Part shown: positions 10,676 through 29,481 of the stretch, piece after piece | Layout of the letters: each line of letters starts with the position of its first letter | Numbering within the stretch: position 1 is the stretch's first letter | Assembly (NCBI GenBank): GCA_903882875.1 | Contig: CAIRYQ010000125.1 | Span: 1 to 46,435 of the forward strand | DNA length: 46,435 nt | Reading direction: 5' to 3' | Origin: an uncultured Spartobacteria bacterium | Lineage (GTDB): Bacteria > Verrucomicrobiota > Verrucomicrobiia > Chthoniobacterales > Chthoniobacteraceae | Program-made: the position numbers and the translations under genes | The notes under the pieces: model-generated | The model's input: only the letters and a program-made list of their open reading frames with translations | The model's database searches: none | What the model was told of the DNA's origin: nothing

Positions 10676-11569
10676 TCATTTCCTCGGAGGCTCGCAAAAC
10701 CAGCCGAACTCCGCCCAGCGCGAGAACCATTCGCGGATTTTTGCAACGCACTTCCCCGGCGAGTCCTTGCTGCCGGTGAATGCAGTCTCGCACGCCGCGC
10801 CGAGCGTCGCGCCGCCGCGCAGCGCGAGCAGGAGCGCGTGGGCCTCGGGGTCGTGGCGCTTGAAATAGACCGAGTTGTCCACGCGATGCACGGTGAGGAA
10901 GACGGGCTTGCGGCTGCGGCGCACGGCGAACGTCCGTGCGCGCTTTTTTTCCGAGGACGAGACGGCGTTGCTTAAGGCGGAGAATTCGGCGCGCTTGAGC
11001 TTGCTCATGAAGTCGTCCACGGGATGCGAAAGCTCCAGCAGGACAATGTAGGGCTGGAGCGCGAGGCGCAGACGTTCCGGTGCGGTGCGTGCCATTTTTT
11101 CCGGCGAGATGATCTTTTGCGAAGGCTCGTCGAAGGCGAGCACGCGCGCCCACTCGACTCGCGCGACATCAATGGCGAGCGCGCTGCGCGGGTGCGTGAG
11201 CTTCGGGTTTGCCTCGATGAATGCGGTGAGCTTCGAGCCGATGTTGCGCAGCGTCCACGAGGTGGACGGATGCGCTTCGAGATATGCATTCGCGAGCCGG
11301 TCGAATTTCCGCTCGCCGAGCACGGCGCGCAGTCCGCGGAAATCCTCCGCGAGCGCGCCGAGCAGCCGCCACCAGTATTGCTGGTTGTAAATCTGCAGCC
11401 GCTCGAATGCAGTGAGTCGGTCATTGGGCCTGATGAATTTCTCCGCCACCGTGCGGTTCGCCAGCGTCATGCTTTCGTCCGCGTTGAGCGGCTTCATCAG
11501 CGCGCCGGTGATCGCGCGCTGCAATGCTTCGAGCCCGGAGGCCGGTTTACGCCGCGAGGATTTCGGCAT
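10676..11569 (-). CDS. bufC: BufC/HvfC-like DUF2063 protein, partner of the MNIO enzyme
   Basis: 297 residues. The DUF2063 domain (about 10-105) shows the family's RLQIYNQQYWWRLLGALAEDF and the FEAHP-like region YLEAHPSTSWTLRNIG; a less conserved C-terminal half follows, ending in a segment resembling the bufferin-associated C-terminal domain. In characterised bufferin systems such proteins form a complex with the DUF692 MNIO enzyme and help deliver the precursor peptide. The 5' end overlaps bufB by 23 bp, so the two are almost certainly co-translated. No signal peptide is visible, matching a cytoplasmic maturation role. The family assignment is good; the role is taken from homologous systems. 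Confidence 0.88.
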   Translation of the reverse strand: MPKSSRRKPASGLEALQRAITGALMKPLNADESMTLANRTVAEKFIRPNDRLTAFERLQIYNQQYWWRLLGALAEDFRGLRAVLGERKFDRLANAYLEAHPSTSWTLRNIGSKLTAFIEANPKLTHPRSALAIDVARVEWARVLAFDEPSQKIISPEKMARTAPERLRLALQPYIVLLELSHPVDDFMSKLKRAEFSALSNAVSSSEKKRARTFAVRRSRKPVFLTVHRVDNSVYFKRHDPEAHALLLALRGGATLGAACETAFTGSKDSPGKCVAKIREWFSRWAEFGWFCEPPRK

Positions 11570-12395
11570 GGGGAAGATGGCGGTTGGCTTTCAGCGCCTC
11601 GGTGTGGACTTCGTCGAAGCTCGGGATGCGATCATCCCATTCGAGCAGCGTCGCGGTGCGGCCCGCGCGTCGGATGGCATGCGCGTACAGCTTCCACACG
11701 GGATCGAGCACGGGATGATCGTGCGTATCGAGGAGATACTTTTTGAACTTCGTGTGCCCCGCGATGTGGATCTGCGCGACGCGGTGCGCGGGTACGGCGG
11801 CGAGATACTCGTACGGATCAAAGCCGTGGTTTTTCGAGGAAACGTAAATGTTGTTCACGTCGAGCAGGATTCCGCAGTCGGCGCGCTCGACGACTTCATT
11901 CAGGAATTCCCACTCGGTCATCTCCGACGCGTGAAACTCCGCGTAGCTGCTCACATTCTCCACCGCGACAGGAATGCCGAGCGTATCCTGCACCTCGCGG
12001 ATGTTCCGCGCCGTCCATTCCACAGCCTCCCGCGTGTAGGGCATCGGCAGCAGATCGTGCGTGTAATGCCCGTCCACGCTGCCCCAGCAGAGATGATCGC
12101 TGAGCCACGGCGTCTGCGTGCGCTTCGTGAGTGCCTTCAGCTTTTTCAAATGCTCGCGGTTGGGCCGCGCGGCGTTGCCGAAATACATCGAAACGCCATG
12201 CTGCACGACGCGGTATTGCTCCAGAATCCTGTCCAGCGCCGCGAGCGGGCGCCCGCCGTCCACCATGTAGTTTTCCGAGATGATCTCGAACCAGTCCACG
12301 ACCGGCTTCCTCTCCATGATGTGATCATAGTGCGGAATGCGCAGGCCGATCCCGATGCCGTAATCGGTGAAAGCGTTGAAGCGGTTCGCGGGCAT
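11547..12395 (-). CDS. bufB: BufB/HvfB-like DUF692 multinuclear non-heme iron oxidase (MNIO)
   Basis: 282 residues, a TIM-barrel MNIO enzyme. Visible conserved blocks are GIGLRIPHYDHI, FEIISENYM (E41), LSDHLCWG (H101), VAVENVSSY (E146), LLDVNNIYV (D179), QIHIAGH (H210, H214) and LEWDDRIPSFDEV (E252, D254), which supply the His/Asp/Glu ligands of the iron cluster in this family. Characterised relatives oxidise Cys residues of a precursor peptide to oxazolone/thioamide or thiooxazole-type groups that bind copper. It lies directly between the Cys-rich precursor gene and bufC, the canonical bufABC order. ATG at 12395 is the natural start. Confidence 0.94.
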   Translation of the reverse strand: MPANRFNAFTDYGIGIGLRIPHYDHIMERKPVVDWFEIISENYMVDGGRPLAALDRILEQYRVVQHGVSMYFGNAARPNREHLKKLKALTKRTQTPWLSDHLCWGSVDGHYTHDLLPMPYTREAVEWTARNIREVQDTLGIPVAVENVSSYAEFHASEMTEWEFLNEVVERADCGILLDVNNIYVSSKNHGFDPYEYLAAVPAHRVAQIHIAGHTKFKKYLLDTHDHPVLDPVWKLYAHAIRRAGRTATLLEWDDRIPSFDEVHTEALKANRHLPHAEILAA

Positions 12396-12409
12396 GTGTG
12401 GGATGAAAG

Positions 12410-12487
12410 ATGTGACTGGTGACTAGTGAATGGTGAATGGCATCCGGCCCGCGCCACCAGTCACTTTTCACCAGTCACCAGTCACAT
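12410..12487. repeat. 21-bp inverted repeat between bufA and bufB
   Basis: Arms 12410-12430 (ATGTGACTGGTGACTAGTGAA) and 12467-12487 are reverse complements with one mismatch, separated by 36 bp. The arms are built from shorter direct repeats of GTGACTGGT type, so several foldings are possible. The left arm ends 14 bp upstream of the bufB ATG, so the folded RNA would be close to its ribosome-binding region. It could tune the ratio of precursor to enzyme, or be a small REP-like element. Confidence 0.6.
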
Positions 12488-12493
12488 TCCGCA

Positions 12494-12524
12494 GAGTCCC
12501 CGGCGGTTCGGACACCGGGGACTC
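12494..12524. promoter_or_regulatory. GC-rich stem-loop just after bufA
   Basis: GAGTCCCCGG (12494-12503) and CCGGGGACTC (12515-12524) form a perfect 10-bp stem with an 11-nt loop, 15 bp beyond the bufA stop. No T-run follows on the minus strand, so it is better read as an RNA-stabilising or attenuating stem that protects the abundant precursor message than as a full terminator. Confidence 0.6.
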
Positions 12525-12539
12525 GCGAAATGCCGCTGA

Positions 12540-12827
12540 CTAGCTGCCGTGGACCGGCTTGCCGTCCTTCACTGCGCAGCCGCCCTTGCCCTTGCAGGAG
12601 TTCTTCAGCGCGCAGCCGTTGTCGCCGCTCTTGCAGCCGCCCTTGCCCTTGCAGGAATTCTTGCCTGCGCAGGAGTGTGTTTCGCCCTTCGCGTCGGCGA
12701 GCACGCCGGCCTTGTCGCCGGTGGTCTTGCCCGTCTGCGCGGCGCTGGCGCGGAAGGTTCCGCCCGCGATAAGTCCGGCGAGGGCTGCGCCGGCGAGGAT
12801 GCCCTTGGTGAGGTTCTTTGTCTTCAT
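12540..12827 (-). CDS. bufA: BufA2-type bufferin precursor peptide (Cys-rich RiPP metallophore)
   Basis: 95 residues from ATG at 12827; the frame continues to 12887, but this ATG directly precedes a signal peptide (KTKNLTKGILAGAALAGLIAG, cleavage near ASA-A at about 30). The mature part carries six Cys at 53, 59, 65, 72, 78 and 84, spaced 6-6-7-6-6, arranged as two copies of a unit containing KNSCKGKGGC. Lys and Gly dominate the rest. This matches bufferin-type precursors whose Cys are modified by an MNIO enzyme before export and which then sequester copper in the periplasm. Context (bufB, bufC downstream) makes the call strong. Which Cys are modified cannot be told from sequence. Confidence 0.9.
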   Translation of the reverse strand: MKTKNLTKGILAGAALAGLIAGGTFRASAAQTGKTTGDKAGVLADAKGETHSCAGKNSCKGKGGCKSGDNGCALKNSCKGKGGCAVKDGKPVHGS

Positions 12828-13110
12828 TCGTTGTTCTGTTTTGGTTTGTTGTTTGGTTTCCACGCGCCGCGGCTGGCGATGTCTCACCGGCCACGGCGCG
12901 CAAGAGTCTTAGTCGCGCCGCCTGCCGTTCCCATTCACCGTCATTGCCACCGGAGGAAAATGAAGCGCGCCCGCCGCGGCAAATTTGCGCAGCCCGCTGG
13001 AGACATTCTTCAGCGTCGAGATTTCTGCCGTGATGGAGGCAACAATCATCGTGAGGGAAAGGGGTGCCAAGAGTCGCAATGCAACCCACGCTAGCAAGCA
13101 CAAATCCGGT
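12828..13110. other. Upstream region of the buf operon, no gene supported
   Basis: The 283 bp between the sulfatase stop and bufA should hold the buf promoter. The stretch just upstream of bufA (12830-12860) is unusually rich in GTTT repeats on the plus strand. No metal-regulator operator could be recognised. A minus-strand open frame ending at 12909 has no ribosome-binding site and was not accepted as a gene. Confidence 0.5.
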
Positions 13111-18368: not shown

Positions 18369-21300
18369 GTGGAAAAGATGATCCGCCATTTTCCTAACGA
18401 ACCGATCGCCATCATCGGCATCGGTTGCAGGTTCCCAGGAGGCGCGCGCGGGCCGGAGGCGTTCTGGAAACTGCTCACCGACGGCGTGGATGCGGTGTCG
18501 GAGGTGCCGGCGGATCGCTGGAATGCGGAGACATTTTTCGATCCGCGCGCCGGGCAAAAAGGAAAATCCATCTCGCGATGGGCTGGCACCGTGGGCGCGA
18601 TCGATCGGTTCGATGCGGGGTTCTTCGGCGTCTCGCCGCGCGAGGCGGAGTGCATGGATCCACAGCAGCGGATGCTGCTTCAGGCGGCGTGGGAGGCGAC
18701 CGATGACGGCGGCGTGGTGATCGATCCCGTGCGCGGTTCCGGGGCGGGAGTGTTCGTGGGAATCTCGACCTACGACTACGCGCTGCTGCAGTCCACGATG
18801 GGCGATCAGAGCGGCATTGACGTGTACACAGCCACCGGTGGCGCGGTGAGCATCGCGGCGAATCGCATTTCCTACTGCCTGAACCTGCACGGCCCGAGCG
18901 TCGCCGTGGATACCGCGTGCTCGTCGTCGCTCGTCGCGCTCCACCTCGCCTGCGCGAGCATCTGGAAAGGCGAATGCCCGATCGCATTTGCGGGTGGCGT
19001 GAATGCGATCCTCACGGCGACGCCGTTCATCAGTTTCAGCCGGAGCGGAATGCTTTCGCCGGACGGCCGCTGCAAGGCGTTCGACGCGACGGCCAATGGC
19101 TTCGTGCGATCGGAAGGTTGCGGAGTCGTGCTGCTGAAGCCGCTCTCCGCCGCGCTCGCGGACGGCAATCCGATCTACGCCGTGGTCCGCGGGACGGCAT
19201 CGAACCAGGACGGCCGCACGAACGGCATCACACTCCCGAGCGCGACCGCGCAGGAGGCGCTCGTGCGCGAGGCGTGCCGCGCCGCCGGTGTCTCGCCGTC
19301 GCAGGTGCAATACGTCGAGGCGCACGGCACCGGCACGCTCGTCGGCGATCCGATCGAGGCCATCGCGCTCGGCACCGCGCTCGGCGATGGACGCGATCCG
19401 CGCACACCGCTCGCGATCGGATCGGTGAAGACCAACATCGGCCACATGGAGGCGGGTGCGGGCATCGCCGGGATCATCAAGACCGCGCTCGCACTGCGTC
19501 ACCGGCAGATTCCGCCGAGCCTGCACTTCCGGAATCCAAATCCGCACATTGATTTTGAAAAGCTGAAGCTCCGCGTGGTGCGGGAGCTGGAGCTGTTTCC
19601 CGACGGAACGGAACTGCCGATCGCGGGCGTGAATTCATTCGGCTTCGGCGGCACAAATGCGCATGCCATTCTCCAGGCACCTCCCGTTTCCGCAGGACGC
19701 CGCATTTCAAAAAACGGAGGCCCGAAGGATCGCGCGCACCTGCTCGCGCTCTCCGCGCGCTGCGAAGAATCACTTCGCGGACTCGCGGCTAAATACACGG
19801 CATTCCTCTCCGATGGCGGCAAAGGCTCGGCGACGAGCCTCCACGACATTTGCTTCACGGCAGGCGCGCATCGCACATGGCACGCATTCCGTCTCTGCGT
19901 CGCAGCGGGATCGCGCGCGGGCATGGCGGAAAAACTCAGCGCATGTGCAGCGGGAGACTCGCGGCCCGGACTTTCGACCGCACACGATTTTGCACCGCAG
20001 TCGCCGGTGTTTGTTTTCTCTGGCCAGGGCCCGCAGTGGTGGGCGATGGGACGCGAACTGCTGGAGCGCGAGCCCGTGTTCCGCGCAAAGATCGAGGAGT
20101 GCGACGCGCTGCTGCGCGAGTTCGGTGACTGGTCGCTGATCGAGGAGATGAAGCGCGGCGAGGCGGAGTCGCGCATGGACGAGACGGCGATCGCGCAGCC
20201 CGCGATTTTCGCTCTGCAAGTCGCGCTCGCCGCGCTCTGGAAGTCGTGGGGAATCCGGCCCGCTGCCGCCGTCGGACACAGCGTTGGCGAGGTCGCCGCC
20301 GCGCACCTCGCAGGCGTGCTCAGCCTGCGCGAGGGCGCGCGGGTGATCTTCCAGCGTGGCCGCTGCATGGACGCCGCGCACGAACGCGGAAAAATGCTCG
20401 CGGCAGCACTGACGTGGGAGCAGGCTGAGGAGGTGATCGCACCGTGGGACGGACGCGTCTCGATCGCCGCGCTGAACAGCCCCGCATCCGTCACGCTATC
20501 CGGCGAGTCCGCCGCGATCGAGACCATCGCGACGCAGCTCGAACAGCGTTCCGTTTTCGCCCGGCTGCTGCGCGTGAACTACGCCTTTCACAGCCACCAG
20601 ATGGATCCCGTGCGCGACGAATTGCTCCGCTCGCTCGGCAAGGTCGAGACCGCACCCGCATCGCTCCGGCTGTTCTCGACAGTGAGCGGGGCCGAGTGCG
20701 CGGGCGATGATTTCGCTGCGGGCTACTGGTGGCGGAATGTGCGGATGCCCGTGCGATTCGCCACGGCGATTGATGCGCTGATTGAAAAAGGCCACACGCT
20801 TTTCCTCGAAATCAGCCCGCACCCGGCACTGACCGGATCGCTACAGGAGTGCATGACGCACCGCTCGGTGAACGGCACGGCGATCGCATCGCTGCGCCGG
20901 AAGGAACCCGAGCAGGAGACGATGCTCGGCGCGCTCGGCGCATTGCACACACACGGCTGCGATGTGAATTGGAAGACGCTGCACCCGTCCTCATCGGCGG
21001 TGCGGCTGCCGTCCTACGCGTGGCGCGAGGAACGATACTGGCATGAAATCGCCGAGAGCCGCGAGGCACGGCTCGCCGCGCCCGCGCATCCGTTCCTCGT
21101 GCGGAAAGTGGATGCCGCCGACCCAACGTGGCAAACCGCGCTCGATCTGAACGCATCCCCATTCCTGAAGGATCACCGCGTGCAGGAGCACGTCGTGTTT
21201 CCCGCCGCCGGCTATGTCGAGATGGCGCTCGGCGCGGCGCGCGTCCTGTTCGGCGGAAGCGCGAGCGTGATCGAGGAGATTGATTTTCAAAAGGCGCTCG

Positions 21301-24300
21301 TCATCAAGGAATGCGACGCCGGAGCGCGCATCCAGCTCTGCCATCACAGGCAGGATTCCACGTTCACCATTTCGAGTTGCAGCGGAACGGGAGGCGAAAC
21401 ATGGGCGGTGAATTCCATCGGAAAAATCCGCGCGTGTCCCGAGGCGAAAATCCCGGAGCCCATCGCGCCGCGTTCGCTGGACGTGGCGAACGCGCAGCAG
21501 GTGAGCAGCGATGAAATCTACGATCGCTTCCGTGGACTCGGCCTGCCGTATGGCCCGATGTTCCGCTGCATCGAAGCCGCATGGCGGCGCGATGGCGAGG
21601 TGCTCGGCCGCATCCGGCTGCCGTCGTCGCTCGAGGCGGAATCGGGAAAATATCAGATCCATCCCACAATCCTTGATGCCTGTTTTCAACTGCTCCTGCT
21701 CGCAGTGCCGGCCGCGGATGCAGGTACGCACCAGCCGCTCTGCCTGCCTGTGCAGATTGCGAGGCTGCGATTTTTCGCAAGCCCCGGCGCGAAGCTCTGG
21801 TGCCATGCGCGTCTCGCATTCAGCGGGAGCCGCGCAGTCGTCGGTGACATCCGCATTCTGGATGAAGACGGGCGCGTGCTGATGGATATCACCGGCTTCC
21901 GCTGCCAGGCGATCCATCGCGGCAAAACCGGCGTGCCCGGCGGCAACGATGATCTGCTGTATGAGACGCACTGGAAGGCACGCCCGCTCGCCATCGGTGG
22001 AACCGTGCCCGCACCCACCGAGATCGCGATCCCGCTGCGTAAGATCGCAGCGCAAGTGGAAGAAACGGCGTCGCGCCTGCGCTTGCAGACCGTCGCCGAG
22101 TGCGACGGAAACAAACTCGACGGCCGCCTCGATCAGCTCTGCCGGTTCTACATTCTCAACGCATTCCGCAAACTGCGCTGGCTCCTCCGCGCAGGTGAAT
22201 CCGTGAAAGTGGCGTCGCTCGCGAAACGGCTGCGCATCGCGCCGGGGCACCGGCAAGTCTTCGAGCGGTTCCTTTCCTTTCTCGAAGCGGACGGCTTGCT
22301 CGCCCGATCCCGCGACGGCTGGAAAGTGCGCAAGATGGAAAAGATTCCGGACACGGATTCCACGTGGGGAAGCGTCCTCGGTGAATTCCCCGGTGCTCTC
22401 GCGGAACTCTCGCTCATCCGTAGCTGCGGGGACAATCTCGCGGAAATTCTCCGCGGCGAAACGGATCCGCTGAAGGTGATTTTCCCGGACGGATCGCTCG
22501 TGGGAGCGGAGCATCTCTATCAGGATTCCGTTTCGTTCCGAGGAAGCAATCTGCTTGTGGCCGAGACCGTCGCGGCAGTCGCGAAGCAACTGCCCGAGGG
22601 CAGGACGCTGCGCGTGCTTGAAATCGGCGCGGGCACCGGCGGCATGACTTCGCACGTCCTGCCACGGCTTCCGGTGGATCGCACGGAATACGTCTTCTCC
22701 GATCTTTCGAATGCATTCTTCTCAAAGGCCGAGCAGAAGTTTTTCCATTTCCCGTTCGTCCGATACCAGCTCCTCGACATCGAAAGATCGGCACTCGAAC
22801 AGGATTTTTCGGCAGCCTCGTTCGACGTGATCCTTGCGTCGGACGCGATTCATGCGACGGCGGATCTGCGGAAGACATTGGAAAACGTGCGTTCGCTCCT
22901 CGCGCCCGGCGGCCTGCTCGTGCTCCTCGAAGTGGATCGCCCCGCGCGCTGGCCGGATCTTGTCTTCGGGCTCACCGAGGGCTGGTGGCGGTTTGCGGAC
23001 ACCGATTTGCGCCCATCGTATCCGCTGGTTTCCGGCGATGCGTGGCTGCGACTTCTCGGCGAGATCGGATTCGTCGGCGCGCAGATGATCTCTGACCGGA
23101 ACAAGTCCATGAAATCCCGGCAGGCGATCTTCCTCGCCACCGCGCCGCGCGCGACCGCGCGAGACGCAGCGCCAGCGCAGCTCGACCTGCGCAAAAATGG
23201 GAAGCCGCGGAAATGGCTCGTCTTCGCAGATCGCACCGGCACGGCGGACAAAGTGCTGCAAACACTCCGCGAACGCGGCGACGATGTCGTGACGGTTCAT
23301 GCCGCCACAAATTTCCGGCGTGCCGCCGACACGTCATTCGAGATCCATCCCGAGTCGCACGAAGACATGGCGCGGCTGATCACGGATGTCCGTGCGAGTG
23401 GGGCGTTCCCGATTTCCAGCGTGCTGCATTTCTGGAGCTTGGACTCTGCAATGCCGCCATCGCTCACCCCGGCGCTGCTGCTGAAGGCGCAGTCGGAAGG
23501 CTGCTACTCGCTGCTGCATTTCGTGCAGGCGATCACGGCGGAATCCTCCGTCGAGCTGCCGCAGCTTTTTGTTGTAACCCGCGGCGCGCATGCAGTGCTT
23601 CGTGCGGACAAGGTCGCTGTCGCCCAAAGCCCGGCGCAAGGGCTCGCGCGCGTCATCGCGAATGAATATCCGAAATTCCGCTGCCGCACGATTGACCTCG
23701 CACCGGAGCAGCCGGACGACGAGGCGCGTTTCCTGTTCGGCGAACTTTTCGCGAACGACGGCGAGGATGAGATCGCGCTCCGTGGCCCGGCGCGCTTCGC
23801 GAGCCGGATCACACGCACGAAGGCTGATCCGAGTCTGCCGCACGCAGGTCACGGCAGAGGCACGGTGCCGTGGCGTGTGGAAATTGATGCGCCCGGCGCA
23901 CTCGATCATCTCGCGTTCCGCGAACGCAAGACACGCAGGCCCGGTCCCGATGAAGTCACGATCGAAGTCCGCGCGGCGGCGCTGAATTTCCGCGACGTGA
24001 TGAAGGCGCTCGGCATCTACCCGGGCGACAACGACGACGATGCCCTGCTCGGCGACGAATGCTCGGGCGTGATCACCGCCGTCGGGCGGAATGTGAAATA
24101 CCTCCGCGTCGACGACGCAGTGCTCGCCGTCGGCCCCGGCTGTTTTTCCTCGCATCTCACGATGCCCGCCGCGCTCGTGTTGCGGAAGCCCGCGCGGATT
24201 CGCTTCGGCGAGGCGGCCACGATCCCCATCACTTTTCTGACCGCGTGGTATGCGCTGCACCATCTCGGGCGGATGAAAAAGGGCGATCGTGTGCTCATCC

Positions 24301-26888
24301 AGGCCGCGACCGGCGGCGTCGGTCTCGCCGCGGTGCAGATTGCGCGGCTCGCGGGCGCGGAGATTTTTGCGACTGCGGGAAGCCCCGAGAAGCGCGGCCT
24401 GCTCCGCGCGCTCGGCGTGCAACACGTCATGGATTCCCGCTCGGTGGCCTTTGCCGACGAAGTGCTCGCGATCACCGGCGGGCGCGGCGTGGACATCGTC
24501 CTGAATTCACTCGCGGGCGACGCGATTCCCGCGGGTGTTTCGACTCTCGCGACCGGCGGACGGTTCCTCGAAATCGGCAAGCGCGACATCTACCAAAACG
24601 CGCGCCTCGGCCTCCGCGCGTTCCGAAACAACATCTCGTTCTTCGTCATAGACCTCGCGCAAATCATGCGTGATGACCCGCCCTTCGTCGCCGCAATGCT
24701 TCGGCGGCTCATGCCGATGTTTGCCTCGGGGAAACTGCGTCCGCTCCCGTTCCGCACGTTTCAGGCATCGCAGGTCGTCAGCGCATTCCGCCACATGTCG
24801 CAGGCGCGGCACATCGGAAAAATCGTGCTCTCGATGGAAAACTGCCGCGCCGTCCCGCTCCCCGCGCCGCGCACAAAGCCGATCCATTTTCGCAGGGACG
24901 CGAGCTATCTGATCACCGGCGGCCTCGGCGGCTTCGGCCTTGCGACTGCGGAGTGGCTTCTGAAAAATGGCGCGGGCCATGTGGTGCTCGTGAGCCGCAA
25001 CGGAGCAACAAGCGACGACGCACGGCGCGCTGTCACCGCGCTGAAAAAAATCGGAAGCGTGCTCGTGCTGAAAGCCGATGTGTCGGATGCACGCGACGTG
25101 TCGCGCATCTTCCGGACGATCTCAAAGAAGCTGCCAACACTGCGCGGGATCATGCACGCCGCGATGGTGCTCGACGACGGCGCGCTCTCGCAGCAGACGG
25201 CAGCGCGATTCAGCCGCGTGATGGCGCCGAAGGTGAGCGGCGCGTGGAATCTCCACGTCGCCTCCGCGCAACTGCCGCTCGATTTCTTCGTGCTGTTTTC
25301 ATCCATCGCCACGATCGCCGGGAGTCCCGGCCAGTCGGCCTATGTCGCCGCAAACAGTTTTCTCGAATCGCTCGCGCATCACCGGCGCGCGTGCGGCCTG
25401 CCGGGGCTCGCGATCAACTGGGGCGTGCTCGGCGAGGTCGGATTCGTCGCCCGCAACAGGAAGGTTGGCACGCTCCTCGAAGGCACCGGCCTCGGCTGCA
25501 TCACGCCCGCGCAGGCACTCGGCATCCTCGGCAAACTGATGCAGGGCACCGGCGCGCAATTCGGCGTGGGCCGGGTGGACTGGCAGCGCCTCTCCGAGTG
25601 TTTTCCGAATGTCCGCACATCCCCGCGTTTCTCTGAAATCGTGAAGGCTCGGAATTCCGACGTTCCGGAGGACGGGATGAATTTCCGCGGGAAGCTCCTC
25701 TCGCTTCCCGTCGTCGGACGGCTCTCCGCGGTGACGGCGCAGCTCAGGGAACAACTCGCGAAAGTCCTACGCACTTCCGCATCGAAGCTCGACACCGAGC
25801 GGCCGCTCAACGAACTCGGTCTCGATTCGCTCATGGGCGTCGAACTTCTGAACCGCATCGAGACCGGCTTCGGGGTTTTGCTCCCCGCGGGCAGTCTCGC
25901 CGCGGGCACTGCCGTTTCAAAAATGGCGGTGCAGATTTTGGAAGGCCTCGCAGGCCCGGCTGAATCGCTGGCTGCCGAGGCGAAACCGTTGCCGGAACCC
26001 CGCGTGTCGCCCGGCTGCCTCGTGCCGCTGCGCGCGGGCGCATCCACGCCGCCGCTTTTCTGCATCCACCCCGCCGGCGGCCTTGCGAACATTTACACGC
26101 ATCTCGCGCGGCAGCTTCCTGCGGAACTCCCGGTGTTTGGCATCCAGTCCCGCGCGTTCACCGGAGGGAATGCCGAACACGCGTCCATTTCCAAAATGGC
26201 ACAGGACTACGCGCGCGTCATCGCGCAGCAGCAACCTCGCGGCGCGGTGCATCTGCTCGGGTTTTCGTTCGGCGGCTTTGTGGCAATGGAGATCGCGCGT
26301 CTTTTCGAAAAGCGCGGCAGGACGGTCGGGCTCATCGCTTTGGTTGACGCCGATTTCCGATGGCTCGGCGAGGGCTGTATGAAAAAGGAATTCCTCCGCC
26401 GTCACATCGCCGAAATGTACGGAACCTACTCGCGCGAACTCGGACTGCTGAAGCCGCTCAAACCCGATGAGCTGACGGCGTTCGCCGCGGAGCTGGAAAG
26501 CGAGATCCACCGCTCGGCGCCGCAGGCGCGCGTCGAACAGGTGCTCCGCGCGATCCACACGCGCGGCTACGTGTCATCCGGGCTGCCGGACAGGGTGATG
26601 AAGCTGTATCTTTCGCTGTTTTTCATCCACACTGATCTGCTCGGCGGCTGCACGCCGCCGGTCGTCAGCTCGCCACTTTCCGTGTGGTGCGGAACGGAGA
26701 CAAAAGGCGAAGGCCATCGTTGGCGGCACTGCACGACCGGGGCATTCAGCGAGAGTGTGATTGATGGAAACCACTACGACCTCATGGTTCCGCCGCTCGT
26801 GGATTTGCTCGCCCCGCAGTTGGCCACGGCATTGAAAAAATCGCGCCCGCGAGGCGCGAAGAAAGAGCGCGCGCTTGCGCCGACCTAA
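18369..26888 (+). CDS. Single-module highly reducing type I polyketide synthase, KS-AT-DH-cMT-ER-KR-ACP-TE
   Basis: 2839 residues. KS about 8-430 (DTACSSS, C184; EAHGTGT, H319; H359). AT about 545-850 (GHSVGE, S638; YAFH at 738-741, usually malonyl-type). DH about 905-1190 (H936; D1103 in HPTILDACFQ). C-methyltransferase about 1270-1590 (LEIGAGTGG at 1417-1425, H1495, E1521). Structural KR about 1600-1830. ER about 1838-2150 (NADPH loop ATGGVG). KR about 2175-2360 (GGLGGFG, S2312, Y2325, LDD motif of B-type KRs). ACP about 2452-2525 (GLDSLMG, S2487). TE about 2550-2830 (GFSFGG, S2633; H2802). Every catalytic residue checked is present, so each extension could be fully reduced and alpha-methylated. 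One module with its own TE suggests iterative use. The start is GTG 18369 or, equally plausible, ATG 18378. It is followed 5 bp later by the transporter genes. Confidence 0.95.
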   Translation: MEKMIRHFPNEPIAIIGIGCRFPGGARGPEAFWKLLTDGVDAVSEVPADRWNAETFFDPRAGQKGKSISRWAGTVGAIDRFDAGFFGVSPREAECMDPQQRMLLQAAWEATDDGGVVIDPVRGSGAGVFVGISTYDYALLQSTMGDQSGIDVYTATGGAVSIAANRISYCLNLHGPSVAVDTACSSSLVALHLACASIWKGECPIAFAGGVNAILTATPFISFSRSGMLSPDGRCKAFDATANGFVRSEGCGVVLLKPLSAALADGNPIYAVVRGTASNQDGRTNGITLPSATAQEALVREACRAAGVSPSQVQYVEAHGTGTLVGDPIEAIALGTALGDGRDPRTPLAIGSVKTNIGHMEAGAGIAGIIKTALALRHRQIPPSLHFRNPNPHIDFEKLKLRVVRELELFPDGTELPIAGVNSFGFGGTNAHAILQAPPVSAGRRISKNGGPKDRAHLLALSARCEESLRGLAAKYTAFLSDGGKGSATSLHDICFTAGAHRTWHAFRLCVAAGSRAGMAEKLSACAAGDSRPGLSTAHDFAPQSPVFVFSGQGPQWWAMGRELLEREPVFRAKIEECDALLREFGDWSLIEEMKRGEAESRMDETAIAQPAIFALQVALAALWKSWGIRPAAAVGHSVGEVAAAHLAGVLSLREGARVIFQRGRCMDAAHERGKMLAAALTWEQAEEVIAPWDGRVSIAALNSPASVTLSGESAAIETIATQLEQRSVFARLLRVNYAFHSHQMDPVRDELLRSLGKVETAPASLRLFSTVSGAECAGDDFAAGYWWRNVRMPVRFATAIDALIEKGHTLFLEISPHPALTGSLQECMTHRSVNGTAIASLRRKEPEQETMLGALGALHTHGCDVNWKTLHPSSSAVRLPSYAWREERYWHEIAESREARLAAPAHPFLVRKVDAADPTWQTALDLNASPFLKDHRVQEHVVFPAAGYVEMALGAARVLFGGSASVIEEIDFQKALVIKECDAGARIQLCHHRQDSTFTISSCSGTGGETWAVNSIGKIRACPEAKIPEPIAPRSLDVANAQQVSSDEIYDRFRGLGLPYGPMFRCIEAAWRRDGEVLGRIRLPSSLEAESGKYQIHPTILDACFQLLLLAVPAADAGTHQPLCLPVQIARLRFFASPGAKLWCHARLAFSGSRAVVGDIRILDEDGRVLMDITGFRCQAIHRGKTGVPGGNDDLLYETHWKARPLAIGGTVPAPTEIAIPLRKIAAQVEETASRLRLQTVAECDGNKLDGRLDQLCRFYILNAFRKLRWLLRAGESVKVASLAKRLRIAPGHRQVFERFLSFLEADGLLARSRDGWKVRKMEKIPDTDSTWGSVLGEFPGALAELSLIRSCGDNLAEILRGETDPLKVIFPDGSLVGAEHLYQDSVSFRGSNLLVAETVAAVAKQLPEGRTLRVLEIGAGTGGMTSHVLPRLPVDRTEYVFSDLSNAFFSKAEQKFFHFPFVRYQLLDIERSALEQDFSAASFDVILASDAIHATADLRKTLENVRSLLAPGGLLVLLEVDRPARWPDLVFGLTEGWWRFADTDLRPSYPLVSGDAWLRLLGEIGFVGAQMISDRNKSMKSRQAIFLATAPRATARDAAPAQLDLRKNGKPRKWLVFADRTGTADKVLQTLRERGDDVVTVHAATNFRRAADTSFEIHPESHEDMARLITDVRASGAFPISSVLHFWSLDSAMPPSLTPALLLKAQSEGCYSLLHFVQAITAESSVELPQLFVVTRGAHAVLRADKVAVAQSPAQGLARVIANEYPKFRCRTIDLAPEQPDDEARFLFGELFANDGEDEIALRGPARFASRITRTKADPSLPHAGHGRGTVPWRVEIDAPGALDHLAFRERKTRRPGPDEVTIEVRAAALNFRDVMKALGIYPGDNDDDALLGDECSGVITAVGRNVKYLRVDDAVLAVGPGCFSSHLTMPAALVLRKPARIRFGEAATIPITFLTAWYALHHLGRMKKGDRVLIQAATGGVGLAAVQIARLAGAEIFATAGSPEKRGLLRALGVQHVMDSRSVAFADEVLAITGGRGVDIVLNSLAGDAIPAGVSTLATGGRFLEIGKRDIYQNARLGLRAFRNNISFFVIDLAQIMRDDPPFVAAMLRRLMPMFASGKLRPLPFRTFQASQVVSAFRHMSQARHIGKIVLSMENCRAVPLPAPRTKPIHFRRDASYLITGGLGGFGLATAEWLLKNGAGHVVLVSRNGATSDDARRAVTALKKIGSVLVLKADVSDARDVSRIFRTISKKLPTLRGIMHAAMVLDDGALSQQTAARFSRVMAPKVSGAWNLHVASAQLPLDFFVLFSSIATIAGSPGQSAYVAANSFLESLAHHRRACGLPGLAINWGVLGEVGFVARNRKVGTLLEGTGLGCITPAQALGILGKLMQGTGAQFGVGRVDWQRLSECFPNVRTSPRFSEIVKARNSDVPEDGMNFRGKLLSLPVVGRLSAVTAQLREQLAKVLRTSASKLDTERPLNELGLDSLMGVELLNRIETGFGVLLPAGSLAAGTAVSKMAVQILEGLAGPAESLAAEAKPLPEPRVSPGCLVPLRAGASTPPLFCIHPAGGLANIYTHLARQLPAELPVFGIQSRAFTGGNAEHASISKMAQDYARVIAQQQPRGAVHLLGFSFGGFVAMEIARLFEKRGRTVGLIALVDADFRWLGEGCMKKEFLRRHIAEMYGTYSRELGLLKPLKPDELTAFAAELESEIHRSAPQARVEQVLRAIHTRGYVSSGLPDRVMKLYLSLFFIHTDLLGGCTPPVVSSPLSVWCGTETKGEGHRWRHCTTGAFSESVIDGNHYDLMVPPLVDLLAPQLATALKKSRPRGAKKERALAPT

Positions 26889-26893
26889 CCGAC

Positions 26894-27583
26894 ATGGACT
26901 CACCGCTCATCGAAGCCCGCGACTTGCAGCGATCGTACGACAACGGAACCGTGAAGGCGCTCCGCGGCGTGAGCTTCACCATCGCACCGGGTGAATTTGT
27001 CTCGATCATGGGCCCGAGCGGATCAGGAAAATCCACGCTGCTGCATATCCTCGGCGCGCTCGACAACGGCTTCGACGGAAACATCACGATTGACGGCACG
27101 GACCTTCGGAAGCTCGACGAGCCGGAGCGGTTCCGTGCGCGCGTCATCGGGTTTGTATTCCAGTCCTTCCACCTGCTCCCGACGCTCACCGCCGTGGAGA
27201 ATGTGCAGGTGCCGATGTTTGAGATGCCGTGGAGCGCATCCGAACGGCGTGAGCGCGCACAGTCGCTGCTCGCATCACTGGGGCTCGCCGATCGCGCGAA
27301 CCATCTTCCTTCCAAGCTTTCCGGCGGCGAACGGCAGCGCGTCGCCATCGCGCGCAGCCTCGCGAACAATCCGCGGCTGCTCCTCGCCGACGAGCCGACG
27401 GGCAACCTCGACAGCACCAGCGCCGCAAAAATCATCGAGTTGCTGCACGAGATCCATCAGCGCAACAACGTGACGGTGATCATCGTCACGCACGATCCGA
27501 ATGTCGCCTCGCACGCGCGGCGCACGCTGCACATGCTGGACGGGCGCATCGTCCGCGAGACCTCCAACCCGGCAAAGACCTGA
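26894..27583 (+). CDS. ABC transporter ATP-binding protein, MacB/LolD type
   Basis: 229 residues with Walker A GPSGSGKST (40-48), Q-loop in FVFQSFHLLPTLTAVENV, signature LSGGERQRVAIARS (142-155), Walker B LLLADEPTGNLD (162-173) and the H-loop VTHDP. The sequence around the signature and the short length match the MacB/LolD/FtsE group, which drives mechanotransmission-type exporters instead of channels. Five bases separate it from the PKS stop and six from the permease start, so all are one transcript. Confidence 0.96.
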   Translation: MDSPLIEARDLQRSYDNGTVKALRGVSFTIAPGEFVSIMGPSGSGKSTLLHILGALDNGFDGNITIDGTDLRKLDEPERFRARVIGFVFQSFHLLPTLTAVENVQVPMFEMPWSASERRERAQSLLASLGLADRANHLPSKLSGGERQRVAIARSLANNPRLLLADEPTGNLDSTSAAKIIELLHEIHQRNNVTVIIVTHDPNVASHARRTLHMLDGRIVRETSNPAKT

Positions 27584-27589
27584 GCGGCC

Positions 27590-28711
27590 ATGTCATTCCT
27601 CACGCTCATTTTGAAAAACCTCATGCGCCGCCGTTCGCGCAGCCTGCTGACGATCATCGGCATCGCGATCGGCATCGGCGCGGTCGTCGCGCTCACGAGC
27701 CTCGCGTGGGGCTTCGAGCGAGGCTGGACGAATGTTTACAAGGCGCGCGGCACCGATCTCATCGTGACAAAGACGACCACGCGCAGCGCGATGCCCTCGC
27801 CTTTTTCCGCAGGGATCGGGAACGAGCTGAAGGCCATTCCGAAAATCCGCGAGGTCGCGGGAATCCTGAGCGACATGTTCAGCGTCGAGGACTCGCCGTC
27901 GCTCGTCGTGATCGGGTGGGAGCCGGGCACTTCGCTGTGGGAGCACCTGAATCTCGTGCAGGGACACATGCCCGCGCCCGCGGCAAAAAATGAGCTGCTC
28001 CTCGGCTCCATCGCCGCGGAGATGCTCGGCAAGAAGGCAGGGGGCAAGGTGCAGATCGAATCGGTGGAGTTCATCGTCGCGGGAGTTTTTTCCAGCTCCG
28101 CGCTCGTGGAGAACGGCGCGGCGATCATGCCGCTGCCCGCGATGCAGGCGCTCACGGAGCGCGAAGGGATGGTCAATTTCCTCGACGTCCGCATGAGCCC
28201 GGACACGAAGCCGCACGAACTGGCGCAGATTCGCGATTCGATCAAATCAAAGTATAAGGGACTGACGGCATTTGATCCGGGCACCGTCGCGCAAAGCAGC
28301 GCGGCGATCCAGATCGCAAAGGCCATGAGCCTCGCCACGTCCTTCATCGCGCTGGTGGTCGGAGCGGTCGGCGTGATGAACACGATCCTCATGAGCGTGT
28401 TTGAACGGTTGCGCGAAATCGGCGTGCTGCTTGCCATCGGCTGGCGGCGTGGGAGAATTTTGCGCATGATTCTTTTGGAGTCGCTCGCACTCAGTTTCAT
28501 CGGCGGCATCGCCGGGTGCCTGATCGGCATAGGCGGCGTGAAAATCCTGGAGGCCACGCCGTGGATCCGCGGAAAGCTGGTCGGTGAAGTCACCCCGGAA
28601 CTCCTCGGAGTCTCGATGCTCATCGCATTCGGGCTCGGCGCGCTGGGCGGAGTGTATCCGGCGTGGATTGGTTCGCGGATGTCGCCGGTCAACGCATTGC
28701 GCCACGAATGA
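27590..28711 (+). CDS. ABC transporter permease, MacB/FtsX type
   Basis: 373 residues: an N-terminal transmembrane helix (LLTIIGIAIGIGAVVALTSL) after the family motif LKNLMRRRSRS, a periplasmic domain of about 200 residues (about 45-240), and three C-terminal helices including the FtsX-like core VGAVGVMNTILMSVFERLREIGVLLAIGWRRG. The C-terminus reads YPAWIGSRMSPVNALRHE, typical for MacB/LolC-type permeases. Together with the ATPase it should extract or push a substrate from the inner membrane or periplasm. Its stop overlaps the next gene's ATG (ATGA). Confidence 0.95.
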   Translation: MSFLTLILKNLMRRRSRSLLTIIGIAIGIGAVVALTSLAWGFERGWTNVYKARGTDLIVTKTTTRSAMPSPFSAGIGNELKAIPKIREVAGILSDMFSVEDSPSLVVIGWEPGTSLWEHLNLVQGHMPAPAAKNELLLGSIAAEMLGKKAGGKVQIESVEFIVAGVFSSSALVENGAAIMPLPAMQALTEREGMVNFLDVRMSPDTKPHELAQIRDSIKSKYKGLTAFDPGTVAQSSAAIQIAKAMSLATSFIALVVGAVGVMNTILMSVFERLREIGVLLAIGWRRGRILRMILLESLALSFIGGIAGCLIGIGGVKILEATPWIRGKLVGEVTPELLGVSMLIAFGLGALGGVYPAWIGSRMSPVNALRHE

Positions 28712-29481
28712 AAGCCCTTCTTCCCATTTTGCTCGTTGCCACGCTGATTTTTCCCGCGATGAAAATGCGCGGATCGGATCGCACGGCGGATGATTTGATC
28801 GCGAAGATGCTGGACTCGCAGAACACCCGCGGTGCGGTCATCCGCGCAAAACTCACCGTCGAGGACGACAAGTCCGATCAGAAGTCGTCCGCGCAGATCC
28901 GCATCCGAATCAGACGCGACCCAGGAATGACGCGGATGCTTTTCCAAGTGCTGTGGCCCGACGCTCACAAGGGCGAGGCGATCTGCATCGAGCGCACAAA
29001 CCGCGGCGTGGCGGGCGGCTTCATTTTCCAGCCGCCGGACAAAATCACACCGCTCACCGCGGCGAACATCGGCCGCGCGTATCTCGATTCCGATCTCAGC
29101 ATCGAGGATCTCGCGGATGAATTCTGGCATTGGCCTTCGCAGAAAATCACCGGCGAGGAATCCATCCGCGGAGATGCGTGCAAGATCGTCGAGTCACGCC
29201 CGACCGGTGGCGCGACGGGCACCTATTCGCTCGTGCGGTCGTGGATTTCGCCGGAAAAGCTGCTGCCTTTGCGCATGGAGAAATTTGGCCGCGACGATCG
29301 CCTTGCAAAACGTTTCACCGTGCAGAAAACCACGCGCCACGAAGGAGTCTGGGCACCGATGACCACCTTCGTGCAGACCGTCGGAAAAACCCGGCTGACC
29401 ACGCTCGAACTCTCCCGCGGGGAACGAGACGTGGAAATCCCGCCTGAGGAATTTTCGCCCGAACGAATCCGAAAGCCGTAG
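28708..29481 (+). CDS. LolA-like outer-membrane lipoprotein-sorting family protein
   Basis: 257 residues from ATG at 28708, which overlaps the permease stop; a start 45 bp upstream is possible but lies inside the permease and is not needed. A signal peptide (MKALLPILLVATLIFPAM) is followed by a beta-rich domain with the LolA-like pattern: TADDLIAKMLDSQN, MLFQVLWPDAHKGEAICI, GGFIFQPPDKITPL, SDLSIEDLADEFWHW and RSWISPEKLLPLRMEKFGRD. Such proteins have the half-barrel fold that carries acyl chains across the periplasm. Coupled to a MacB-like pair and a PKS, it is a reasonable carrier for the polyketide product or a lipid made from it; this is inference. Confidence 0.88.
   Translation: MKALLPILLVATLIFPAMKMRGSDRTADDLIAKMLDSQNTRGAVIRAKLTVEDDKSDQKSSAQIRIRIRRDPGMTRMLFQVLWPDAHKGEAICIERTNRGVAGGFIFQPPDKITPLTAANIGRAYLDSDLSIEDLADEFWHWPSQKITGEESIRGDACKIVESRPTGGATGTYSLVRSWISPEKLLPLRMEKFGRDDRLAKRFTVQKTTRHEGVWAPMTTFVQTVGKTRLTTLELSRGERDVEIPPEEFSPERIRKP

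Follow-up and report, generated by a model that had tools for sequence, protein, structure and literature searches.

A thioesterase-bearing polyketide synthase followed by ABC transporter and LolA-fold carrier genes: a candidate lipid synthesis and trafficking operon in an uncultured Spartobacteria bacterium

The window analysed here is a stretch of 46,435 nucleotides that forms one whole contig (CAIRYQ010000125.1, assembly GCA_903882875.1) of an uncultured Spartobacteria bacterium, from a 5.78-Mb genome that is 96% complete with 1.9% contamination. It carries a four-gene operon, all on the forward strand, in which a single-module type I polyketide synthase (PKS) is followed by an ATP-binding cassette (ABC) ATPase, a permease and a carrier predicted to adopt the LolA fold, and which we propose as a candidate unit of polyketide-lipid synthesis and trafficking. 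The four genes and the domains of the PKS (KS, ketosynthase; AT, acyltransferase; DH, dehydratase; MT, C-methyltransferase; ER, enoylreductase; KR, ketoreductase; ACP, acyl carrier protein; TE, thioesterase) are as follows.

18369..26888, + strand: single-module type I PKS, KS-AT-DH-MT-ER-KR-ACP-TE, 2839 residues (open reading frame, Pfam, motifs)
18399..19676, + strand: KS, C-H-H motifs intact (Pfam, motifs)
20007..20963, + strand: AT, residues 547-865, GHSVG and YAFH (Pfam, motifs)
21087..21926, + strand: DH, residues 907-1186, H and D motifs present (Pfam, motifs)
22125..22319, + strand: HTH_51-like segment ahead of the MT, residues 1253-1317 (Pfam, below cut-off, 28.9 of 50)
22581..23075, + strand: MT, within residues 1405-1569, S-adenosylmethionine (SAM) motif LEIGAGTGG (Pfam, motifs)
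23244..23711, + strand: structural (pseudo) KR subdomain, PF21394, residues 1626-1781 (Pfam)
23943..24830, + strand: ER, residues 1859-2154, GGVGLA (Pfam, motifs)
24900..25430, + strand: KR, residues 2178-2354, TGGLGGFG, LDD and YVAAN (Pfam, motifs)
25740..25910, + strand: ACP, residues 2458-2514, GLDSL (Pfam, motifs)
26049..26786, + strand: type I TE, residues 2561-2806, GFSFGG and C-terminal GNHYD (Pfam, motifs)
26894..27583, + strand: ABC ATPase of the LolD/MacB/YbbA kind, 229 residues (Pfam, profile and sequence match)
27590..28711, + strand: ABC permease, MacB_PCD and FtsX, modelled with a LolE/MacB-like fold, 373 residues (Pfam, structure model)
28708..29481, + strand: LolA-fold carrier, PF17131, 257 residues (Pfam, structure model)

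Within a single module the PKS has every domain needed for full reduction, and the catalytic motifs are intact. Domains were called with Pfam, all but HTH_51 above their cut-offs, and every motif sought was found, which bears out the original prediction of a 2839-residue KS-AT-DH-MT-ER-KR-ACP-TE protein with intact motifs. The Pfam KS match spans residues 11-387, and the KS motifs DTACSSSL, EAHGTGT and NIGHME are all present; in the DH, HPTILD is present and the histidine motif HxxxG has E where G is usual. An alternative in-frame start of the PKS lies at the ATG at 18378. The specificity motif of the AT is YAFH, neither HAFH nor YASH; these residues are read as a guide to the extender unit, and from the Phe in YAFH we infer a malonyl-type AT. 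The TE resembles solved TEs over about 90-120 core residues only, and the reaction that it performs is therefore not readable from its sequence. Gene spacing is as originally described, with 5 bp between PKS and ATPase, 6 bp between ATPase and permease, and an ATGA overlap between permease and carrier, whose ATG lies at 28708. The four genes have GC contents of 0.60-0.65 (window 0.627). As counts of promoter-like sites (2, vs 1.3 +/- 1.1 in shuffles) and terminator-like sites (17, vs 11.6 +/- 3.6) in the window are near those of shuffled sequence, the limits of the operon are drawn from gene spacing alone.

The carrier has a signal peptide without a lipobox, as judged by eye. Its structure model (pLDDT 89.6) finds its best fold matches in the DUF1329 protein 4z48, Porphyromonas gingivalis LolA3 (9tp6), 3bk5 and 3buu (Z 28.5-21.8), with LolB and LolA entries trailing at Z of about 9-15, and LppX (2byo) and LprG among the weaker Foldseek matches. 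On this model the carrier is predicted to have a LolA fold nearest to the DUF1329 and LolA3 types, not to Escherichia coli LolA. For P. gingivalis LolA3, the named fold closest to the model, the available portion of one report describes very weak binding to LolB and proposes a separate function (PMC13103446). The permease model (pLDDT 84.6) matches MacB, LolE, Streptococcus pneumoniae 5xu1 and HrtB. By sequence against solved structures, the permease is nearer MacB (116 bits) than LolC (66), and the ATPase scores 240 bits with LolD, 227 with MacB and 206 with the darobactin exporter DarD. The transport substrate is not readable from the fold and sequence matches of carrier and permease. A LolD equivalog paired with a LolC/E permease was rejected on profile scores (ATPase 240.5 vs the LolD cut-off of 307.75; permease 65.2 vs 362.45 for lolCE), and efflux of the MacAB-TolC type was rejected since ATPase and permease are separate genes and the operon holds no HlyD/MacA-type gene.

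These findings bear on an alternative in which the product would be a diffusible secreted metabolite, perhaps an antibiotic or a signalling compound, with the ABC transporter acting as a MacB-like pump for efflux or self-protection. The likeness of the permease to MacB, and an ATPase that matches MacB and DarD nearly as well as LolD, are what such a pump might be expected to show. The original prediction of a MacB-like exporter likewise holds as far as permease sequence goes, and fails in that there is no membrane-fusion protein and that the carrier is LolA-fold. Given these same two features, together with the lipid-type enzymes of the six-gene cluster described below, we consider efflux of a diffusible metabolite improbable.

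We lean instead, if only a little beyond even confidence, towards a unit of polyketide-lipid synthesis and trafficking, in which a methyl-branched, reduced chain released by the TE would take a Lol-like periplasmic route. The single PKS, iterating, would extend an acyl starter with malonyl units, malonyl use, iteration and chain length all being presumed; its KR, DH and ER would reduce beta-keto groups, its MT would add SAM-derived methyl branches, and its own TE might release the chain as an acid or transfer it to a small acceptor. A transporter built of an ATPase pair and a permease pair would then extract this product, or a lipid of which it forms a part, from the inner membrane; the soluble LolA-fold carrier would receive it there and cross the periplasm, putatively toward the outer membrane. 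This interpretation draws on the domains and motifs, the recurrence of this gene arrangement in another genome, the related cluster and its linkage to PKSs, the KS and permease trees, the two structure models, phosphopantetheinyl transferase candidates elsewhere in the genome, and precedents for Lol-like carriers beside acyl-chain synthesis. The candidates (PF01648) number three in the genome, one of them on contig C44, which encodes another large KS protein; the PKS of the operon is the sole PF00109 match on its own contig. Given these candidates and the two further enzymes of the six-gene clusters, the original suggestion of a pathway complete in four genes is no more than a possibility.

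By sequence comparison the operon appears to belong to a wider family than the original prediction could see. The host is placed in the order Chthoniobacterales (Verrucomicrobiota). The PKS of the operon is matched at E <= 1e-250 in 44 of the 213 genomes of the order; full-length MT-bearing relatives listed at that threshold have about 2550-2670 residues and are 42-49% identical to it. An MT match is present in 26 of the 40 loci retrieved within the order, some of which hold no PKS or just a PKS fragment. The majority of full-length relatives sit in a six-gene cluster (type locus L034) of PKS, condensation-fold acyltransferase (PF00668), fatty-acid desaturase (PF00487), ATPase, permease and LolA-like carrier. 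There the PKS keeps the same order, KS-AT-DH-MT-ER-KR-ACP, minus the TE, whose place is occupied by the acyltransferase and desaturase, and the ATPase-permease-LolA triad is the same. The cluster is complete in 19 of 22 loci that include the KR of the PKS and the acyltransferase and extend 3.8 kb or more downstream. Retrieval of 13 of the 22 via LolA favours intact triads and biases the count upwards; for the other nine, retrieved later via the PKS from genomes not previously taken at that PKS locus, the bias is downwards, and six are complete. Among the matches listed, bearers include Chthoniobacter flavus Ellin428 (L158), in which the PKS is divided between two reading frames, Verrucomicrobium sp. 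BvORR034 and BvORR106 (L140, L152), in which LolA lies ahead of the ATPase, and metagenome-assembled genomes (MAGs) labelled Opitutus, Akkermansiaceae and Prosthecobacter. The operon was rejected as a member of this cluster itself, as its 5-bp PKS-ATPase gap holds neither acyltransferase nor desaturase and it falls outside the six-gene groups of the KS and permease trees.

The four-gene order PKS-ATPase-permease-LolA recurs in one further MAG, that of the uncultured Verrucomicrobia bacterium Loc080925-8-8m_bin-163 (G213). Its contig (locus L112) starts inside the TE, after which come ATPase (73% identical), permease (62%) and LolA (46%), and its PKS is 61% and 52% identical to that of the window on its two main contigs. 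The contig ends overlap exactly over 119 bp at the first pair, and are 99% identical over the 214 bp compared at the second. A scan of contigs for relatives, which took the best 80 matches, some of them near-copies, so that counts are no census, gave 24 Chloroflexi-type loci, which were excluded, and 56 others chosen by permease similarity only. Among these matches, 31 of the 40 loci with at least 5 kb upstream have a PKS there; the excluded set has a PKS in none of 24. In the latter (L166-L170, L172-L190), permease relatives occur as tandem pairs, with an ATPase match in 20 of 24 loci and a PKS or LolA match in none. Together with the nearest TE-bearing PKS, in G213, the PKS-linked exporters of many genomes sustain the original picture of a reducing PKS with a TE beside a trans-periplasmic carrier system. 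Chance adjacency of PKS and triad is ruled out at the level of the family by the linkage in 31 of 40 loci, and may apply to the window taken singly.

The same loci inform a second alternative, whereby the ABC-LolA triad would be a general set for trafficking lipids or lipoproteins, placed behind a PKS through co-regulation or chance. Solitary triads without an upstream PKS exist; in three of them (L030, L113, L114) a gene for a related alpha/beta hydrolase lies ahead of the ATPase (55% identical between L113 and L114), and two loci (L111, L160) have ATPase and permease with neither LolA nor PKS. Further, more distant TE-bearing PKSs in three other genomes (G239, G614 and G018, described below) have no triad adjoining them at these loci, so that the original expectation of an exporter beside orthologous PKSs holds for G213 and not for these three. 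Against a general set stand the PKS linkage of loci chosen on the permease, the presence of one exporter type beside two PKS clades, and the operon-like spacing of the four genes, and we consider it unlikely.

The solitary triads and the unaccompanied TE-bearing PKSs also weigh against the synthesis and trafficking unit that we favour, as do several further observations. The best permease relatives are 35% identical (partial) in G239 and 29% in G614; nine of the 40 permease-selected loci have no upstream PKS; and three of the 22 loci with PKS and acyltransferase (L098, L100, L103) lack the full triad. In G213, the PKS is spread over three contigs and the TE frame is broken once, either through assembly error or as a real lesion. 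A LolB-like partner was not seen beside the operon, LolB not having been searched for in the genome, and the ER tree, described below, does not gather the TE types together.

Searches with the TE found matches in 12 of 188 genomes of the class and three of 387 of the phylum, the genome of the window being counted in both, and yielded two further full-length TE matches on PKSs, in G239 (34% identical) and G614 (30%). In the former, MT, ER, KR, ACP and TE lie on a contig without the front of the PKS; the latter, a single-contig genome, encodes a 2805-residue PKS with all the Pfam domains except the MT, its SAM motif also missing. MT and TE are thus combined in the window, G213 and G239. G018 belongs to the family of the window's host, and its locus L108 (G018:C14, 4701-11975, + strand) encodes a 2424-residue PKS with KS-AT-DH-ER-KR and a TE and no MT, partly hidden by the E <= 1e-250 limit of the order-wide PKS list; a TE unique to the window PKS within the order is ruled out by it. 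As these three PKSs have no adjacent triad, their sequences indicate that a TE by itself is not tied to the exporter. By eye, the gene preceding the ATPase is, or ends in, an alpha/beta hydrolase in five of the seven loci comprising the window and its six nearest relatives (exceptions L111 and L160), which hints that the exporter may serve the product of a hydrolase-type release. Homology of the TE to the hydrolases of the solitary triads was rejected, no similarity being detectable (E about 0.8 for L114; none listed with L113).

Whether release is hydrolytic bears on a third possibility, that the TE is a transferase which would join the chain by an ester bond to an acceptor such as a sugar or glycerol, the exported ester being equivalent to the product of the six-gene acyltransferase. 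The TE of Pks13 acts in this way, and is among the weak Protein Data Bank matches of the operon TE. A PF00668 protein replaces the TE in the six-gene cluster, and TE-bearing relatives adjoin a glycosyltransferase gene (G614) or one for an LPG_synthase_C protein (G239). The short core over which solved TEs are matched, and best by those of nonribosomal peptide synthetases, argues the other way, and we give such a transferase roughly one chance in five.

Phylogenies were built for KS and ER from hits that span 85% or more of the domain at selected loci (the KS tree being a quick one), and for the permease from hits of at least 300 residues, where the six-gene label includes short loci whose PKS is not on the contig. 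In the KS tree, the window groups with G213 and G614 (SH-aLRT 96), the six-gene PKSs group apart (100; a truncated locus among them), a third group (100) consists of the MT-less PKSs found at lipid-A loci, and G018 is distant, joined over long branches to a PKS from a Persicobacter plasmid. In the permease tree, the window, L112, L111 and L160 form a group (99) beside the solitary triads L113 and L114 (87), while six-gene permeases and six unlinked ones have a group of their own (99), excepting a distant second permease of L133. The TE type and the six-gene type are therefore separate in both trees, and one exporter type stands beside two PKS clades. The ER tree again joins the window with G213 (81) and unites the six-gene loci (100), and places G239 and G614 elsewhere with weak support; a single origin of the TE type is therefore not established.

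Some relatives have other neighbours. The TE-less, MT-bearing PKS with the highest identity to that of the window (49%; L091, G125:C30, 3747-15886, - strand) has downstream of it a HlyD-type gene, a pair of permease genes and one for an ATPase carrying a cNMP-binding domain, which resemble DevBCA. Four relatives are MT-less (L092-L095). Two (L092, G108:C56; L093, G068:C18) immediately precede a gene for a lipid A acyltransferase (PF03279), followed next in L092 by an LpxA-type gene and an LptF/LptG permease, as if the PKS chain fed lipid A; a similar PKS lies near a contig end in L094 (G104:C119). In L095 (G124:C210, 5428-13135) the PKS adjoins a type III PKS (PF00195), an alkylresorcinol-like pairing.

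The domain order had originally been taken as that of fungal highly reducing PKSs, which does not hold. Comparison with fungal enzymes is by scores against solved structures, with no fungal rows in a tree. The KS is nearer CurL of cyanobacteria (491 bits), PikA1 (464), GfsA (437) and Mas (413) than LovB (363), the top summed score belonging to a two-KS chain (7zma) and CurL being the best single-KS match; the MT is best matched by CurJ, likewise cyanobacterial (279 bits, vs 126 for LovB). A fungal-type PKS was therefore rejected, MT-bearing bacterial relatives also being common. Plasmid PKSs of Deinococcus, Nostoc and Paraburkholderia cover at least 80% of the query and have an MT match, that of Deinococcus adjoining a condensation protein and that of Nostoc lying near DevC and HlyD genes on the opposite strand; plasmid-borne LolA relatives amount to one weak match. 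From these scores and plasmid PKSs, the architecture is judged bacterial and not rare. Over its whole length the PKS is best matched by Mas (1184 bits; LovB 776), so that the original comparison with Mas-type enzymes was apt, but Mas itself has the order KS-AT-DH-ER-KR-ACP without MT and TE, and a Mas-type PKS was rejected as the window PKS has both.

Four known systems resemble the operon in their working, and our best reading by analogy is that it belongs to none. The mycobacterial phthiocerol dimycocerosate (PDIM) system comprises Mas, PapA5, DrrABC and LppX in the portion of the source available (PMC11237470), and shares with the operon a single-module PKS for methyl-branched chains, an ABC transporter and, in LppX, a carrier with a LolA-like fold; PapA5 is a condensation-fold acyltransferase comparable to that of the six-gene cluster. 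It differs in involving MmpL7 and a second PKS set, in that LppX is a lipoprotein, and in its envelope, and no orthology is shown. Heterocyst glycolipids, made by Hgl genes and exported by DevBCA according to the accessible text (PMC8064123), are likewise PKS-made lipids exported by a MacB-related ABC transporter, although there a membrane-fusion protein and TolC take the place of the LolA-like carrier. The PKS architecture of that system also differs. As far as the sections available describe them, the aryl polyene cluster has LolA-like ApeL, LolB-like ApeN and the resistance-nodulation-division transporter ApeM (PMC8253772), and the flexirubin cluster has LolA2/LolB2, a specialisation which its authors call a first to their knowledge (PMC11885536). 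Both set a polyketide-like acyl chain beside dedicated Lol-like carriers, with a presumed outer-membrane end point; the aryl polyene cluster, unlike the operon, uses discrete enzymes resembling fatty acid synthase, its ApeM transporter and a LolB-like partner, and the operon, unlike either, pairs a type I PKS with an ABC transporter of the LolC/MacB type. None of the four, as described in these sources, unites a type I PKS, a LolC/MacB-type ABC pair and a LolA-like carrier. No description of the operon or the six-gene cluster was found in searches of the open-licence PubMed Central literature.

Elsewhere in the window, the operon is flanked by a major facilitator superfamily (MFS) gene on the opposite strand and a PSCyt2/PSD1 gene, and the remaining genes scanned (PSCyt2/PSD1, DUF1501, sulfatase, MFS and others) have no tie to lipid synthesis by Pfam. 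No RNA families or tRNAs were found in the window. At 10679-12887 (- strand) lies a locus like those for ribosomally synthesised and post-translationally modified peptides, which we take to be bufferin-like, with an MbnB/TglH/ChrH enzyme (PF05114), DUF2063 (PF09836) and, inside the frame 12540-12887, a small precursor with a signal peptide and CKGKGGC repeats.

The operon and its sister cluster may point, tentatively and at somewhat less than even odds, to an undescribed envelope-lipid system across the Verrucomicrobiota, in which single-module PKSs would make methyl-branched chains for a dedicated ABC-LolA route, with two exchangeable modes of release, by TE or by acyltransferase and desaturase. 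If true, this system would be a Gram-negative counterpart of PDIM made of other transport parts. Outer-membrane lipid traffic is known chiefly for lipoproteins, lipopolysaccharide and phospholipids, and the pairing of one lipid-type PKS with one ABC-LolA route would make Lol-like export of a non-protein lipid directly testable. With the sister cluster present in many Verrucomicrobiota, cultured Verrucomicrobium and Chthoniobacter strains included, the two together would lead one to expect branched envelope lipids of a new class in a phylum abundant in soil.

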